Part shown: in pieces, positions 51,883-61,013 of the stretch
Layout: the number at the start of each line of letters is the position of its first letter
Position numbering within the stretch: position 1 is the stretch's first letter
Origin: Micromonospora gifhornensis
GTDB taxonomy: Bacteria > Actinomycetota > Actinomycetes > Mycobacteriales > Micromonosporaceae
Assembly (NCBI RefSeq): GCF_016863515.1
Contig: NZ_BOPA01000021.1
Location: 1 to 64,000 of the forward strand
Direction: 5' to 3'
Length of the DNA stretch: 64,000 nt
The notes under the pieces: generated by a model
Database searches by the model: none
Told to the model about the DNA's origin: nothing
The model's input: the letters and a program-made list of their open reading frames with translations, nothing else
Translations under genes and position numbers: made by a program

Positions 51883-53601
51883 TCAGCTGAAGAAGTAGAG
51901 CTGGCTCATCGGGAGGTTCTTGGCCGCCGGCACGGTCGCGTGGACGCCGTCCATCTTCACCGCGAAGGTCTCCGGGTCGACCTCGAGCTTCGGGGTCCGG
52001 TCGTTGCGCACCATGTCCCGCTTGGTCAGGTTGCGGCACTGGTAGACCGGCATGACCTGCCGTTGCAGGCCCAGCTGTTCGCCGATGCCGTTCTCGTGGG
52101 CGGCCTTGGAGACGAAGGTGACGCAGTTCTTGGCGACCTGGGTCCCGGTCGCGCCGAACGAGGGTCGGTAGTAGACCGGCTGCGGCGTGGGCAGCGAGGC
52201 GTTCGGGTCGCCCATGATCGACCAGGCGATCATCCCGCCCTTGAGCACCATCTTGGGCTTCACCCCGAAGAAGGCGGGCTCCCAGAGCACGAGGTCGGCC
52301 AGCTTGCCCGGGGTCACCGATCCGATGACGTGGGAGACGCCCTGGGTGATGGCCGGGTTGATGGTCATCTTGGCGACGTAGCGCAGCACTCGGAAGTTGT
52401 CGTTGCTCGACGAGTCCTCGGCGAGCTTGCCGCGGACGTTCTTCATCTGGCCGGCGAGCTGGATGGTGCGCAGCCAGGTCTCCCCCACCCGGCCCATGGC
52501 CTGCGAGTCGCTCTGCATCATCGAGATGACGCCCTCGTCGAGCAACACGTCCTCGGCCGCGATGGTCTCGGTGCGGATGCGGCTCTCCACGAAGGCCACG
52601 TCGGAGGGGACCTTCGGGTTGAAGTTGTGACAGACCATGATCATGTCGTACAGCTCGGACTGGCTGTTGATGCCGTACGGCACGGTGGGCGTGGTCGAGC
52701 CGGGCAGCACGTTCATCTGACCGGCCACCTTGATGATGTCCGGTGCGTGGCCGCCGCCGGCGCCCTCGGTGTGGAAGGTGTGGATGGTCCGGCCCTCGAA
52801 GGCGGCGATCGAGTCCTCGATGTAACCGCTCTCGTTGAGGGTGTCGGTGTGGATGCTGACCTGTACGTCGAACTCGTCGGCGACGGCCAGGCACGAGCGG
52901 ATCACCGCCGGAGGCGCGCCCCAGTCCTCGTGGATCTTGAAGCTCGGCACCCCGGCCATGATCTGCTCCACCAGCGGCGCGCGACCGCTGCTGTTGCCCT
53001 TGCCCAGCAGGCCGATGTTGATCGGCAGGTTCTCGAAGGCCCGCATCATGTTGTGGATGTTCCACGGGCCCGGCGTGATGGTGACGCCGTTGGTGCTGTC
53101 GGTGGGGCCGGTGCCGCCACCCCAGAGGGTGGTCACCCCGTTGCTGAGCGCCGTCTGCACCTGGAACGGCGTGACCAGGTGGACGTGGGCGTCGATGCCG
53201 CCGGCGGTCAGGATCAGGTGTTCGCCGGAGATGGCGTCGGTTCCCGGTCCGGTCACCAGGCCGGGGGTCACCCCGTCCATGATGTTCGGATTGCCGGCCT
53301 TGCCGATCCCGGCGATCCTGCCGTCCTTGATGCCGACATCGGCTTTGATCACGCCGAGCAGCGCGTCCACGATGGTGACGTTGGTGATCACCAGGTCGAC
53401 CACCCCCTCGGCGTTGGTGGCCTGGCTGCTGCTGCCCATGCCGTCGCGCAGGGTCTTGCCGCCGCCGTACATGACCTCGTCGCCGAGGACCCGCAGGTCC
53501 TTCTCGATCTCGATGTAGAGGTCGGTGTCGGCCAACCGGATCTGGTCGCCCGTGGTGGGGCCGTACATCCCGGCATATTCTTGCCGCGAAATCTGACTCA
53601 T
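51883..53601 (-). CDS. ureC: Urease subunit alpha (catalytic)
   Basis: A 572-residue metallohydrolase containing the di-nickel centre. It has the [20 protein letters not shown] metal-His segment, the carbamylated-Lys region, [30 protein letters not shown], and the flap Cys in [13 protein letters not shown]. Length and order are normal for the actinobacterial three-subunit enzyme. It is 38 bp after ureB and 47 bp before ureE, all on one strand. Confidence 0.98.
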
Positions 53602-53639
53602 TCTCTTCCGCTCCAGGTTCCGTACGCGCTCGTCGGCGC

Positions 53640-54098
53640 CTACTGCTTCTTGTTGTCGCCCTGGTCCTGCGCGCTGAACTTGAAGCCGCGTGTCCTGGCG
53701 TTGTGCAGCGACTCGGCACGATCCGGTCGGTAGTCCGGCGGCGTCGGGTCGTCGCCGGTCCAGCCCTGGACCAGGCCGTTGAACCCGTACACGCGTTGCA
53801 GACCACCGAACGGGATCAGTTGCACGGTCTTGCGGTCACCCGGCTCGAACCGGATCGACGTGGTCGCCGGGATGTTGAGTCGTTTGCCGAAGGCGGCCGG
53901 TCGATCGAATTCGAGGTACCGGTTCGCCTCGAAGAAGTGGAAGTGGGAGCCGACCTGGATGGGCCGGTCACCGGTGTTGTGCACGACGACTTCGATCACC
54001 GGACGGCCGGCGTTGAGCTCCAACGGCTGGTCGCTGAGCTTGTATCCACCGATCGGGCGCAGGTGCTTGGAGTTCGGTCCCGGATGTTGTTTCGCCAT
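53640..54098 (-). CDS. ureB: Urease subunit beta
   Basis: A 152-residue beta subunit. The core [22 protein letters not shown] and [20 protein letters not shown] segments are diagnostic. The C-terminal tail (about 110-152) is longer than the approximately 100-residue minimum and hydrophilic, a common actinobacterial variation. It lies between ureA and ureC. Confidence 0.97.
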
Positions 54099-54130
54099 TT
54101 CTGCCTCGCTCTGTCACGAAAGGGAGCGCC

Positions 54131-54433
54131 TCATTGAATGGGCGAGTGGATGGTGATCAGCCGGGATCCGTCGGTGAACACCGCCTCGACCTGGAGCATC
54201 GGGATCATGTCCCCCACGCCGGGCATCACGTCGTCGGCCTTGAGCACGGTGCGTGCGTCGTTCATGACCTCTTCGACGGTCTTGCCCTCGCGGGCGCCCT
54301 CCAGGGCCGCGGCGCAGATCACCGCCACCGACTCGGGATGGTTGAGCTTCAGACCCTTCGCCCGCCGGGCATTGGCCACCATCGCCAACGAGAGGATGGT
54401 GAGCTTGTCGAATTCTCTCGGAGTGAGATGCAT
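54131..54433 (-). CDS. ureA: Urease subunit gamma
   Basis: A 100-residue gamma subunit of normal length with [47 protein letters not shown] and the [18 protein letters not shown] end. It is the first gene of the operon ureABCEFGD - urea transporter - amt. The ATG at 54433 follows GAAGGATCAGG. Confidence 0.97.
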
Positions 54434-57533: not shown

Positions 57534-58436
57534 TCACTCGTCACCCGGTCCTGGTAACCGGCGGCGAACCTCGGCGAGGAGATCGACCTGTGCCCGCCAG
57601 TCCGGGCCGGACAATCCGATGACCACATGGTTCGCGCCGTGGGCGGCGTACTCCGCGAGGCGTGCGGCGGCCTCGTCCGGCCCACCGGTGACGGGAAGCT
57701 CCTCGGCGTCGCGGGCGGTGTGCCGGTACGCGCCGGCCAGCCCTGCCGCCAACTCTGTACGGGAGGGCGTGCCCGGGGCGTCGCCCAACGCACCGGTGGC
57801 ACCGATGGTCACCGTCGGCACCGGTCGGCCGGCAGCGGCGGCCACCGCATTGAGTCGCTCCCGGCCCTGCGCCAGTGCCGTGGGAGTGATCAGTGACGGG
57901 AACCAGCCGTCGCCCAGCCGGGCTGCCCGGTCGATCGCCAGCGTCGAGGCGTTGCCCACCCACAGCGGCGGAACCTCGACACCGGGCGAGAGGGTGACCG
58001 CGCTCCCGTCCGGCATGGTCACCGACTCGCCCGCCAACAGTCCGGGTAGCAGCCGCAGCGCGGTGTCGGTACGCGGGCCGCGCTCGCGGAAGGCGACACC
58101 CGCCGCCGCCCACTGGGCGGCACCACCACCGGAGCCGACACCGAGCAGGAGCCGGTTGCCGGAGACCAGTTGCAGGCTCGCCACCTGCTTCGCGGCCCAC
58201 ACCAACGGGCGGATCGCGGGAATGAAGACGCTCGCGCCGATCCGGATGCGGGCGGTGGCGGTCGCGGCGACGGCCAGGGCGATCGTGCAGTCCACGGTGG
58301 GCATCCCGACGGCGAGATGATCGCCGTGCCACACGCTGTCCAGACCAGCGTCCTCCGCGTGGCGGGCGGCGGCGGCAAGGTCGAGGGAGTCTCGCCGTTG
58401 GATGGTCAGCGAGGGCAGGATCACGCCGACCTTCAT
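57534..58436 (-). CDS. LLM-class flavin-dependent oxidoreductase
   Basis: A 300-residue luciferase-like monooxygenase fold protein, probably using F420 or FMN. MKVGVILPSLTIQRRDSLDL, DSVWHGDHLAVG, and the C-terminal GLSGPDWRAQVDLLAEV are typical. GIGASVFIPAI and LVSGNRLLLGVGSGGGAAQW form the cofactor-binding face. The start overlaps the stop of the quinone-oxidoreductase-like gene by 4 bp (ATGA), so both are under the SoxR-like promoter at 59377-59407. Substrate unknown. Confidence 0.92.
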   Translation of the reverse strand: MKVGVILPSLTIQRRDSLDLAAAARHAEDAGLDSVWHGDHLAVGMPTVDCTIALAVAATATARIRIGASVFIPAIRPLVWAAKQVASLQLVSGNRLLLGVGSGGGAAQWAAAGVAFRERGPRTDTALRLLPGLLAGESVTMPDGSAVTLSPGVEVPPLWVGNASTLAIDRAARLGDGWFPSLITPTALAQGRERLNAVAAAAGRPVPTVTIGATGALGDAPGTPSRTELAAGLAGAYRHTARDAEELPVTGGPDEAAARLAEYAAHGANHVVIGLSGPDWRAQVDLLAEVRRRLPGPGDE

Positions 58437-59341
58437 CGGACCAGGACCACCTTGCCCCGGCCGTGGCCGGTCTCCACCTCCCGATGGGCGTCGGCGGCCT
58501 TCGCCATCGGATAGGTCCGACGGACAGGGAAGCGCAGGTCACCTGTGGCATAGAGGGCGGCGAGAGCAGCGAGGCGGGCAGCGGAACGCAGGTTCGGGGT
58601 GGTCCGGATGCCGAGGTCGGCAGCGCGGGCGTGCTCGGTCAGGGTGAGGATCCGGGAGCGGTCGGCGCAGAGGGCCAGGGACGCGGTGAGCGCCTCACCG
58701 CCGGCACCGTCGAGCACCAGATCGGCGCCGTCCGGCAACAGGCCGCGGAGACGGTCGACCAGGTCAGGGCCGTAGACCACAGGCACCGCGCCGAGGGTAC
58801 GCAGATAGTCCTGGTTGGCAGCACCGGCCGTGCCCACCACACGGGCTCCGGCCCGCAGCGCGAGTTGCACCGCCACCGCGCCGACGGCACCGGCCGCGCC
58901 GTGCACGAGCAGGGTTTCGCCGTACGCGGGCCGGATCTGTTCGAGGGCGATGTGCGCGGTCTGGGCCGCGCCGCTGAACCCTCCGGCGACCTCCCAGGGC
59001 ATGGCGGCCGGCTTGGCGGTCACCTGGTCGGCGGGTACCACGATGAACTCGGCCGCGGCGTTCATGAAGCCGAAGCCCAGCACCTCGTCACCGACGGCGA
59101 CGCCGTCGACCCCGTCACCAACCTGATCGACCACTCCGGTGAACTCGTTGCCCGGCACCGCGGGCAGTGGGGCCCGCGCCCAGTCGGGCGTAGACCCGGC
59201 GCGTACCGCGCAGTCGATGGGCTGCACGCCGGCCGCCCGCACACTCACCCGGACCTGGCCGGGGCCCGCCTGCGGCGTCTCGACCTCAGCCCACTCCAGC
59301 ACCTCTGGCCCGCCGACCTGTCTGAACACCACTGCCTTCAT
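58433..59341 (-). CDS. NADP-dependent zinc-type alcohol dehydrogenase / quinone oxidoreductase
   Basis: A 302-residue MDR-superfamily oxidoreductase. It has MKAVVFRQVGGPEVLEWAEVE, the GNEFTGVVDQVGDGVDG segment and the Rossmann motif VHGAAGAVGAVAVQLALRAG. The structural-zinc Cys residues are absent, so it belongs to the quinone-reductase branch. The ATG at 59341 follows GGGGAGG. It is first in an operon with the LLM enzyme and is preceded by a MerR-type promoter, which suggests induction by redox-active or quinone-like compounds. Confidence 0.93.
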   Translation of the reverse strand: MKAVVFRQVGGPEVLEWAEVETPQAGPGQVRVSVRAAGVQPIDCAVRAGSTPDWARAPLPAVPGNEFTGVVDQVGDGVDGVAVGDEVLGFGFMNAAAEFIVVPADQVTAKPAAMPWEVAGGFSGAAQTAHIALEQIRPAYGETLLVHGAAGAVGAVAVQLALRAGARVVGTAGAANQDYLRTLGAVPVVYGPDLVDRLRGLLPDGADLVLDGAGGEALTASLALCADRSRILTLTEHARAADLGIRTTPNLRSAARLAALAALYATGDLRFPVRRTYPMAKAADAHREVETGHGRGKVVLVR

Positions 59342-59376
59342 GTGTGGCCTCCCCGTGATCCGTCGCCGCAGGAGCC

Positions 59377-59407
59377 AGTCTCAAACCTCAACCACAGGTG
59401 AGGTCAA
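59377..59407 (-). promoter_or_regulatory. MerR/SoxR-type promoter with 19-bp spacer
   Basis: On the - strand TTGACC (59407-59402) and GAGACT (59382-59377) are separated by 19 bp, the over-long spacer typical of MerR-family promoters. Inside it, ACCTCA (59385-59390) and TGAGGT (59399-59404) form an inverted repeat resembling the CCTCAA..TTGAGG SoxR box. Confidence 0.7.
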
Positions 59408-59443: not shown

Positions 59444-60508
59444 TCAGGCTGCCGGCTTGGCCAGGCAGGTGGTGCCGTCCGGGCTGGCGAGCGACACCTG
59501 TCGGTACCCCTCGCTGTGGTAGAGGTCGATGTTGCGCTGGCTCCTCGCCCCGGTGAACAGCACCATGCGACGGCAGTCGGGATCGGCGGCGGCTTCGGCG
59601 GTCCGCAGCAGCCACCGGCCCAGCCCCTGGCCGCGCAGGTCAGGAGCGACAGCGAGCCGGCCCACGTGCCAGTCGGTGTCGACGCGGCGGGACCGCACCA
59701 TGCCCAGTAGTCGGCCGTCCCGCCACAGGCCGGTGGCGTGCCAACTGGTCAGCCACTCTCGCACCTGCTCCGGCGACTCGTGCAGGGCCGGTATGTCCAT
59801 TGTGTCGTTGGCGAGGGCCTCGTCCACCCAGCAGCACCGCTGGAGCACCGTCACCTGGCCCGCGTCGTCGGCCGTCAGTCGTCTGGCGTAGGAACCAGGC
59901 AGCGGACCGGGGCTGGATCCGACGTGCGCGCGTTCCCGCATCGGCCGCAGCGCGTGCGCGACCCGGACCAGTTCCTCCAGCAGGCCGACACCCGCCGCGT
60001 GGTGGGCGGCGTCGGGCCGCAGTCGCCCGTCCTGCATTGCCGCGCCGATACGGATCGCGACGGTGGCACCGAGCGGGACCAGGCGCAACGTGGTGACCAC
60101 CTGCTTGGCGTGCTGGACCGCCCGGGTGCCGGCCGAGGTGTGGCCGTAGCTGACGAACCCGAACGGCTTCCACGCCCATTCGCGACTGAGGTAGTCCAGC
60201 GCGTTCTTCAGGGTCGCCGGCATCCCGTAGTTGTACTCCGGGGTGATTGCGATGAAGCCGTCCGCAGCGTCGACGGTCTCGCTCCAGCGCAGCGTGTGCT
60301 CGTGCCGGTAGCTGCCCGACGCCGGATGCTCCTCCTCGTCCAGGAACGGCAGGTTCAGGTCGCCGATGGCGACCGGTACGAGCTCGACGCCGAGCCCCGC
60401 AGCCCGTGGGGTGAGCGTTTCGACAAGCCACTGCCCGACGACCGGGCCGAGGGCGCCGGGGCGGGTGCTGCACACCAGGGCAAGAACACGAATCGATCTC
60501 GTTGACAT
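59444..60508 (-). CDS. NADPH-dependent FMN reductase - GNAT acetyltransferase fusion
   Basis: A 354-residue two-domain protein. The N-terminal flavodoxin-like half (about 1-185) is an NADPH-dependent FMN/quinone reductase with the ITPEYNYGMPATLKNALDYLS motif. The C-terminal half (about 205-354) is a GNAT acyltransferase with GRLAVAPDLRGQGLGRWLL as motif A. Each half is complete; they are normally separate proteins. No frameshift or stop joins them, so the fusion is genuine in this sequence. It diverges from a MarR gene across a 11-bp inverted repeat, so MarR control is likely. Confidence 0.9.
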   Translation of the reverse strand: MSTRSIRVLALVCSTRPGALGPVVGQWLVETLTPRAAGLGVELVPVAIGDLNLPFLDEEEHPASGSYRHEHTLRWSETVDAADGFIAITPEYNYGMPATLKNALDYLSREWAWKPFGFVSYGHTSAGTRAVQHAKQVVTTLRLVPLGATVAIRIGAAMQDGRLRPDAAHHAAGVGLLEELVRVAHALRPMRERAHVGSSPGPLPGSYARRLTADDAGQVTVLQRCCWVDEALANDTMDIPALHESPEQVREWLTSWHATGLWRDGRLLGMVRSRRVDTDWHVGRLAVAPDLRGQGLGRWLLRTAEAAADPDCRRMVLFTGARSQRNIDLYHSEGYRQVSLASPDGTTCLAKPAA

Positions 60509-60549
60509 GGAAACGAATCGTAGGTGCTAGATTGATTACATGTCAACGA
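60499..60549. promoter_or_regulatory. Divergent promoter with inverted repeat over both start codons
   Basis: TCGTTGACATG (60499-60509) and CATGTCAACGA (60539-60549) are perfect 11-bp inverted arms that contain the start codons of both divergent genes and a TTGACA on each strand. The leftward gene has TTGACA-18-TACGAT (60546-60517); the rightward has TAGATT (60528-60533) 6 nt before its ATG. A likely MarR operator. Confidence 0.7.
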
Positions 60550-61013
60550 AGCCGGCAGCGAAGCCCGTACGCTGGTTGAATCCGGACGAGGAGCGGGCGT
60601 GGCGGGCGTACCGGCGGGTGATGGTCGCCGTCTCGACCGGCACCACCGGTGATCTCGCGGCGATCGGGCTCTCCGAACCCGACTACGAGGTGCTGAGCAC
60701 CCTCTCGGAGCGACCCGACCACACAAGCGGCCTGGGCGAGCAGGCCGACAAGATGGGCTGGTCACGCAGTCGTCTGTCCCGGCACGCCACCCGGATGGAG
60801 GCTCGCGGTCTGCTGCGACGCACCCCCGACCCGAACGACGGTCGCGGCTGCCTGCTCACCCTCACCGCCCAGGGTCTGGCCGCTCTCGAAGAGGCCGCAC
60901 CGACCCACGTCGAGTCGGTACGACGTCATTTCATCGACCGACTCGACGCGGAAGACTTCAGCGCCATCGAACGGATCGCCCGGAAGCTGGAAGAACCCAC
61001 AGCCGACAGCTGA
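60540..61013 (+). CDS. MarR-family transcriptional regulator
   Basis: A 157-residue winged-helix regulator. It has LSEPDYEVLSTLSERPDHTSGLGEQADKMGWSRSRLSRHATRMEARGLLRRTPDPNDGRGCLLTLTAQG, the MarR recognition helix and wing. The transcript is predicted leaderless: TAGATT ends 6 nt before the ATG. Because the inverted repeat at 60499-60549 covers both start regions, it probably represses itself and the FMN-reductase/GNAT gene until a small ligand releases it. Confidence 0.94.
   Translation: MSTKPAAKPVRWLNPDEERAWRAYRRVMVAVSTGTTGDLAAIGLSEPDYEVLSTLSERPDHTSGLGEQADKMGWSRSRLSRHATRMEARGLLRRTPDPNDGRGCLLTLTAQGLAALEEAAPTHVESVRRHFIDRLDAEDFSAIERIARKLEEPTADS

Follow-up and report, generated by a model that had tools for sequence, protein, structure and literature searches.

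The window, by which we mean the whole stretch of 64,000 nucleotides that was analysed, carries on its minus strand a gene for a quinone-oxidoreductase-like MDR protein (QOR; 58433–59341, 302 aa) and, directly behind it, a gene for an LLM-class oxidoreductase (57534–58436, 300 aa), and both enzymes are as the sequence-only reading had described them. QOR scores above the Pfam cut-offs for ADH_N, ADH_zinc_N, and ADH_zinc_N_2, its best NCBIfam model being quinone_pig3 at 146.5 bits, under the 296.8 cut-off of that model; the second enzyme matches Bac_luciferase. The end of the QOR gene and the start of the LLM gene overlap by 4 nt (ATGA), and the LLM gene is probably the second gene of the QOR transcript. 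A likely ribosome-binding site (GGGGAGG, 59348–59354, minus strand) is found 6 nt 5′ of the QOR start codon. On the other side of the promoter studied here, a fused NADPH-FMN-reductase and GNAT acetyltransferase protein (59444–60508, minus strand) is encoded divergently from a MarR-family gene (60540–61013, plus strand), with a promoter-like site, TTGACA-18-TACGAT, between the two. Judged by open reading frame resemblance, urease structural genes appear to be located farther upstream within the window (51883–54433, minus strand).

The promoter and its conservation at QOR homologues

The promoter claimed earlier is present and reads from 59407 to 59377 on the minus strand: a −35 hexamer TTGACC (59402–59407), an over-long spacer of 19 bp (59383–59401), and a −10 hexamer GAGACT (59377–59382), which is 35 nt from the QOR start codon, so that the QOR message here is not leaderless. 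A SoxR-box-like operator dyad, ACCTCA-N8-TGAGGT, occupies 59385–59404 (20 bases, ACCTCAACCACAGGTGAGGT); on the minus strand its left half, ACCTCACCT, has one deviation and its right half, ACCTCAACC, fits the consensus. The earlier description of the dyad as centred in the spacer is a little loose, since its centre is 2.5 bp closer to the −35 than the spacer centre. The pattern ACCTCA-N6..10-TGAGGT matches the window once, at this dyad, and shuffled windows (n = 100) contain a mean of 0.02 such dyads, two shuffles having a match. A 31-base pattern that includes the spacing and the −10 matches the window at 59377–59407 only, at both ≤1 and ≤2 mismatches, and matches none of 100 first-order Markov simulated windows (first two T fixed). 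A generic sigma-70 promoter scan does not list the site, because the spacers in that scan were limited to 16–18.

MerR-family activators such as MerR, CueR, and ZntR act on promoters with a spacer of 19–20 bp and a dyad inside it, and they usually control the neighbouring operon. The arrangement at 59377–59407 has both the 19 bp between −35 and −10 and the dyad between them. Unlike in those systems, there is no MerR-family regulator gene on the contig of the window (C21): none of the 23 MerR_1 matches in the genome falls there, which bears out the earlier statement that the window has no MerR gene.

The box lies within 300 nt upstream of the QOR homologue in 23 of 43 tabulated loci and is lacking in the other 20. 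All 23 boxed rows have TTGACC or TTGACT as the −35, the identical 19-bp spacing, and NANNNT at the place of the −10. Thirteen of them come from Micromonospora and ten are among the best 20 of 80 loci from named genomes, the remaining 60 of which have no box; one locus of M. zingiberis (L075 and L104) is counted in both the genus and the named lists. The boxed named-genome loci belong to Phytohabitans, Asanoa, Actinomadura, Streptomyces, Kitasatospora, Frankia, and Micromonospora. Presence of the box follows the identity of QOR, with 21 of 26 loci boxed at ≥55% identity and two of 17 below 55%. The Phytohabitans and Asanoa loci (L105, L107) have every conserved base of the dyad, and their −10 is just 7 nt from the ATG. 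This conservation of dyad and 19-bp spacing at QOR homologues, together with the anatomy of the site, strongly supports the earlier proposal of MerR-type activation, and we take 59377–59407 to be a promoter of that predicted type.

The LLM gene does not share this conservation. With flanks of 1.5 kb in the genus and ≤4 kb in the named genomes, it is directly 3′ of QOR in one of the 35 other loci compared (L307, 63% identity), and it is not directly after QOR in 21 other loci of a first comparison and 13 further ones; L106 has a 42% LLM homologue ~3 kb from QOR. The conserved target is therefore QOR. No MerR gene is found immediately beside QOR in any of the 23 boxed loci. MerR genes downstream of QOR in L110 and L111 were considered as its regulator and set aside, as they encode proteins without the Fe-S cluster motif and are 1.2 and 2.5 kb away.

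Candidate regulators and a genus-wide set of like promoters

The sequence-only reading had suggested looking through the genome for SoxR and for further copies of the box, and both were found. The genome encodes a single SoxR, on another contig than the window (G000:C44, locus L060), which scores 209 bits against the TIGR01950 cut-off of 116.9 and has all four cluster cysteines in the motif CX2CXCX5C (CIGCGCLSLSRC); a SoxR with the cluster motif, as a SoxR regulon requires, is thus encoded in this genome. Its recognition helix reads QSALRYYE. Most of the Micromonospora SoxRs that we read (L060 1486–1926; L057, L059–L073) have SALRYYE in place of SALHFYE; VSALHFYE stands at this place in SoxRs from S. 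huiliensis, S. mashuensis, and Actinomadura, among others, and SALHFYE in many other fetched SoxRs. At the same Micromonospora loci, an operator of the AGTTGAAG type is located between soxR and a transketolase-like gene. SoxR is present in 149 of 151 Micromonospora genomes. The genome of the window also encodes a second SoxR-like MerR protein (G000:C15 105006, 139 aa, helix PSAVRFYE), which at 86 bits is under the SoxR cut-off, is without the Fe-S cysteine set, and is divergent from an FMN reductase gene with a box between the two. In L018 (1441–1860), the gene of a SoxR-like MerR protein without Fe-S cysteines, divergent from an FMN reductase, is flanked on either side by a box that matches the relaxed pattern fully.

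Further copies of the box were sought genome-wide by pattern searches. The relaxed pattern, TTGASYTSAASNNNNSTTSARSTNNNANNNT, is a 31-mer in which positions 2, 5, and 8 may be either G or C. At ≤2 mismatches it has nine sites in the genome of the window and none when reversed. At ≤1 mismatch, there are 769 sites in 150 of the 151 Micromonospora genomes (mean 5.1, range 0–10), and the reversed-pattern control has no match in any of the 151. We looked closely at 70 distinct sites with ≤1 mismatch, not at all 769 (67 loci fetched by pattern plus 10 QOR loci, flank ≤1.5 kb): for 48 the fetched locus contains no MerR gene, 17 have a SoxR with the cluster motif as neighbour, and five have other MerR frames, two of which (L288) are actually near a SALHFYE SoxR truncated by the locus edge. 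The SoxR-adjacent sites are flanked by soxR on one side and, on the other, by a transketolase-like gene that is read divergently. A MerR scan of L320–L339, stretches with little upstream DNA in which mainly the downstream side was covered, found none.

The targets, named from family searches, or from resemblance by eye where stated, are largely redox and export genes. Pfam matches at sites without a MerR neighbour include a quinone reductase (L276), MFS exporters (L241, L247, L328), a questin-oxidase-like protein (L248), an OCD-like protein (L238), an arylamine N-acetyltransferase (L290), a short-chain dehydrogenase (L236), an ABC transporter (L332), and NAD-binding reductases (L324, L336). 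In L288, near the SALHFYE SoxR of genome G011, a box lies 5′ of a gene for a DsbA and F420-quinone-reductase fusion. Ni-superoxide dismutase genes are behind the box in seven Micromonospora genomes (L286, L320–L323, L325, L338), at sites that start with TTGACAT or TTGACCT, and three more TTGACAT-start sites (L324, L326, L327) lead to other genes. None of the nine sites in the genome of the window was found to precede a sodN, the genes behind all but the C18 site having been identified. A variant of the box that ends in GTGCTTCACT or GTGCTTGACT, and in which the −10 located 19 bp away is missing its A, was observed in L236 and L289, also in G052 and G093. In L236 it leads to a short-chain dehydrogenase gene, as it does, by eye, in L289.

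The distance from promoter to coding region is often very short. Among 63 distinct sites, an ATG follows exactly 6 nt past the −10 in 35 and at 7 nt in seven. Sixteen of those 35 are mutually homologous soxR–transketolase sites; the 41 sites without a MerR gene nearby have the ATG at 6 nt in 17 cases and at 7 nt in six. Since the ATG stands 6 or 7 nt past it, the −10 is independently fixed and leaderless messages are implied.

Discussion

The question that follows from these observations is which protein reads the dispersed boxes. The usual half-site beside soxR is AGTTGAAG, and the half-site at the QOR of the window is ACCTCAAC. In the genome itself, the operator beside soxR is TTGAGCTGAACCCTGCTTCAACTTGCAGGCT, and several of its half-site positions disagree with the QOR box. 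The soxR–transketolase operator uses AGCTGAACC/AGTTGAAGC, and hybrid sites elsewhere link both operator types. At position 5, a G half is paired with a C half in 20 of 48 orphan dyads, with ~23 expected by free assortment of the 59 C and 36 G halves, and position 2 is mixed in 14 of 48. Since the relaxed pattern takes either base at positions 2, 5, and 8, a sharp preference could not show. Among the 17 SoxR-adjacent dyads, two are mixed at position 5 and six at position 2. As orphan dyads mix both half-site types, the homodimer that reads them must accept both, and one dimer seems to do so, judging from these base patterns. The mixed half-sites thus point, with good probability, to SoxR as the common regulator of the orphan boxes. 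Two Streptomyces and one Kitasatospora (L111, L115, L110) have a SoxR with SALRYYE and boxes of the ACCTCAAG/ACTTCAAG type both beside soxR and at QOR; therefore, a SALRYYE helix can go with half-sites of this kind. The operator at the QOR promoter itself resembles that of a SoxR regulon, CCTCAAGTTAACTTGAGG or ACCTCAACTGCAGTTGAGGT by a TTGACC −35 that is separated from the −10 by 19 bp. Its dyad equals the SoxR box of Stenotrophomonas mfsA at 17 of 20 bases, and it agrees with the outer CCTCAA/TTGAGG at 11 of 12.

Other regulators have to be weighed against SoxR, and the clearest single rival is the C15 MerR protein, which could run the QOR box in trans. It is present in the same genome, adjoins the gene of a flavin enzyme (FMN reductase), and its adjacent box, TTGACCTCAACTAATGTTGAAGT, has the ACCTCAAC half-site in common with the QOR box, which made it an early strong candidate for a conserved regulator. 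However, a regulon of this protein would need the regulator wherever the QOR box is kept, and G003, G007, and G015 keep QOR and the box with no C15-type MerR at E ≤ 1e-12, the sole match there being SoxR at 35–37%; we rejected it as the conserved regulator on account of these three box-bearing genomes. Moreover, boxes near C15-type MerRs in the genus have mostly A+T-rich centres, for example AACATATGTT, unlike QOR boxes. Control of the QOR box by the C15 protein is quite unlikely on this evidence. Within the 23 MerR loci of the genome (1.5 kb each side), TTGACCTCAA-N6-TTGAGGT occurs at ≤3 mismatches only at C15, which argues against the idea that another of the 23 MerR-family proteins runs the dispersed boxes. 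With the relaxed pattern, the MerR-near sites in 67 loci are at SALRYYE SoxRs, at C15, and at SVSAIRFYE/SASAIRFYE MerRs, and the rest comprise a single site with two mismatches in the MerR locus L237 and the L288 pair close to the SALHFYE SoxR of G011. Speaking for another MerR protein are the resemblance between operators of different MerR members and the two boxes kept in G001, where soxR is not detectable; we consider it unlikely.

G001 and G139 are the two of 151 genomes in which soxR was not detected, and both keep boxes. The two boxes in G001, before MFS and QOR genes by resemblance (L269, L277, L301), are counter-evidence to control by SoxR. This 560-contig assembly has no detectable soxR-linked transketolase either (best transketolase match 44% identity), and a gap over both genes is possible. 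G139 seemed at first to be counter-evidence too; its transketolase match begins at contig base 11 with the first 31 residues missing, and its soxR probably sits in an assembly gap, whereas G001 showed no contig end of this kind. G127 has a SoxR and no site at ≤1 mismatch. It is highly improbable that the box is a decaying relic, once regulated and without functional control in this strain. The mismatch in the left half-site of the window and three departures from the strict consensus in the QOR box of the closest relative, G003, would fit decay, but the −35, the −10, the spacing, and the right half are intact, and in the relatives L306, L307, and L076 (65–69% identity) the box, at 61–66 nt, deviates from the relaxed pattern by one base at most. 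The distant SoxR acting in trans, which the earlier reading had offered as a possibility, is the best-supported choice, given the SoxR on C44, the dispersed boxes by redox genes, and the likeness to the mfsA box, and we consider it likely that this protein controls the QOR promoter.

Under control by SoxR, the promoter would work as has been established for this activator (PMC4411124). The 19-bp spacer would keep the −35 and −10 too far apart and rotated, so that RNA polymerase uses them poorly, with a SoxR dimer made from G000:C44 occupying the dyad. Redox-active quinones or similar metabolites would oxidise the [2Fe-2S] cluster, and the oxidised SoxR would distort the DNA so that the hexamers become aligned. 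QOR, with the LLM enzyme behind it, would then be transcribed to process the inducing compound. The predicted parts of this mechanism are that SoxR binds, that redox cyclers induce, and that the LLM gene is co-transcribed, along with the substrates; the mechanism builds on the observed promoter anatomy and its conservation, a SoxR with four cluster cysteines, and the dispersed promoter set.

As a single site, the QOR promoter is an ordinary case; a SoxR-controlled quinone oxidoreductase is already known in Streptomyces. SoxR of S. coelicolor binds the promoter of the quinone oxidoreductase SCO0320ext, which has a soxbox (PMC4146615), and the boxed set here resembles that regulon in being small and dispersed, in an antibiotic-producing actinomycete, with a quinone oxidoreductase target (PMC4146615). 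An ABC transporter and oxidoreductases are likewise among the S. coelicolor SoxR targets, as among the boxed genes here (PMC4146615). SCO0320ext (also SLI_0274, SAV_4018) and the QOR of the window are likened by description, and unlike in S. coelicolor, an LLM gene follows the QOR of the window. The mfsA promoter of Stenotrophomonas maltophilia (TTGACC, 19 bp, CATGCT) has a SoxR box proven by gel shift, with binding lost on mutation, and has in common with the window the TTGACC, the 19-bp spacer, and the dyad ACCTCAAC...GTTGAGGT; there, however, soxR is divergent and adjacent, whereas here it is on another contig (PMC4411124).

Beyond the S. coelicolor set, the boxed Micromonospora genes include transketolase, Ni-superoxide dismutase, questin-oxidase-like, and OCD-like genes, and the genus seems to place unusual genes under SoxR-type control, as far as box positions tell. 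A transketolase of S. avermitilis has also been noted with a soxbox (PMC4146615), and sodN of S. coelicolor is controlled by Nur indirectly via a small RNA (PMC3919588). Within the titles and abstract openings of the open-access papers listed, we found no description of a genus-wide mixed-half-site SoxR regulon with Ni-superoxide dismutase. We put forward, tentatively and as a proposal that could well fail, that the Micromonospora SoxR (mostly SALRYYE) runs a genus-wide dispersed regulon with mixed ACCTCAAC/AGTTGAAG half-sites, often leaderless, and that Ni-superoxide dismutase, transketolase, questin-oxidase-like enzymes, and quinone reductases such as the QOR of the window are direct members of it. 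The QOR–LLM pair would thereby be placed in a response to redox metabolites. The survey provides a testable SoxR regulon for a major antibiotic-producing genus and a candidate direct link from SoxR to Ni-superoxide dismutase in relatives, and, if true, the response to superoxide and quinones would be wired directly to SoxR, without SoxS.
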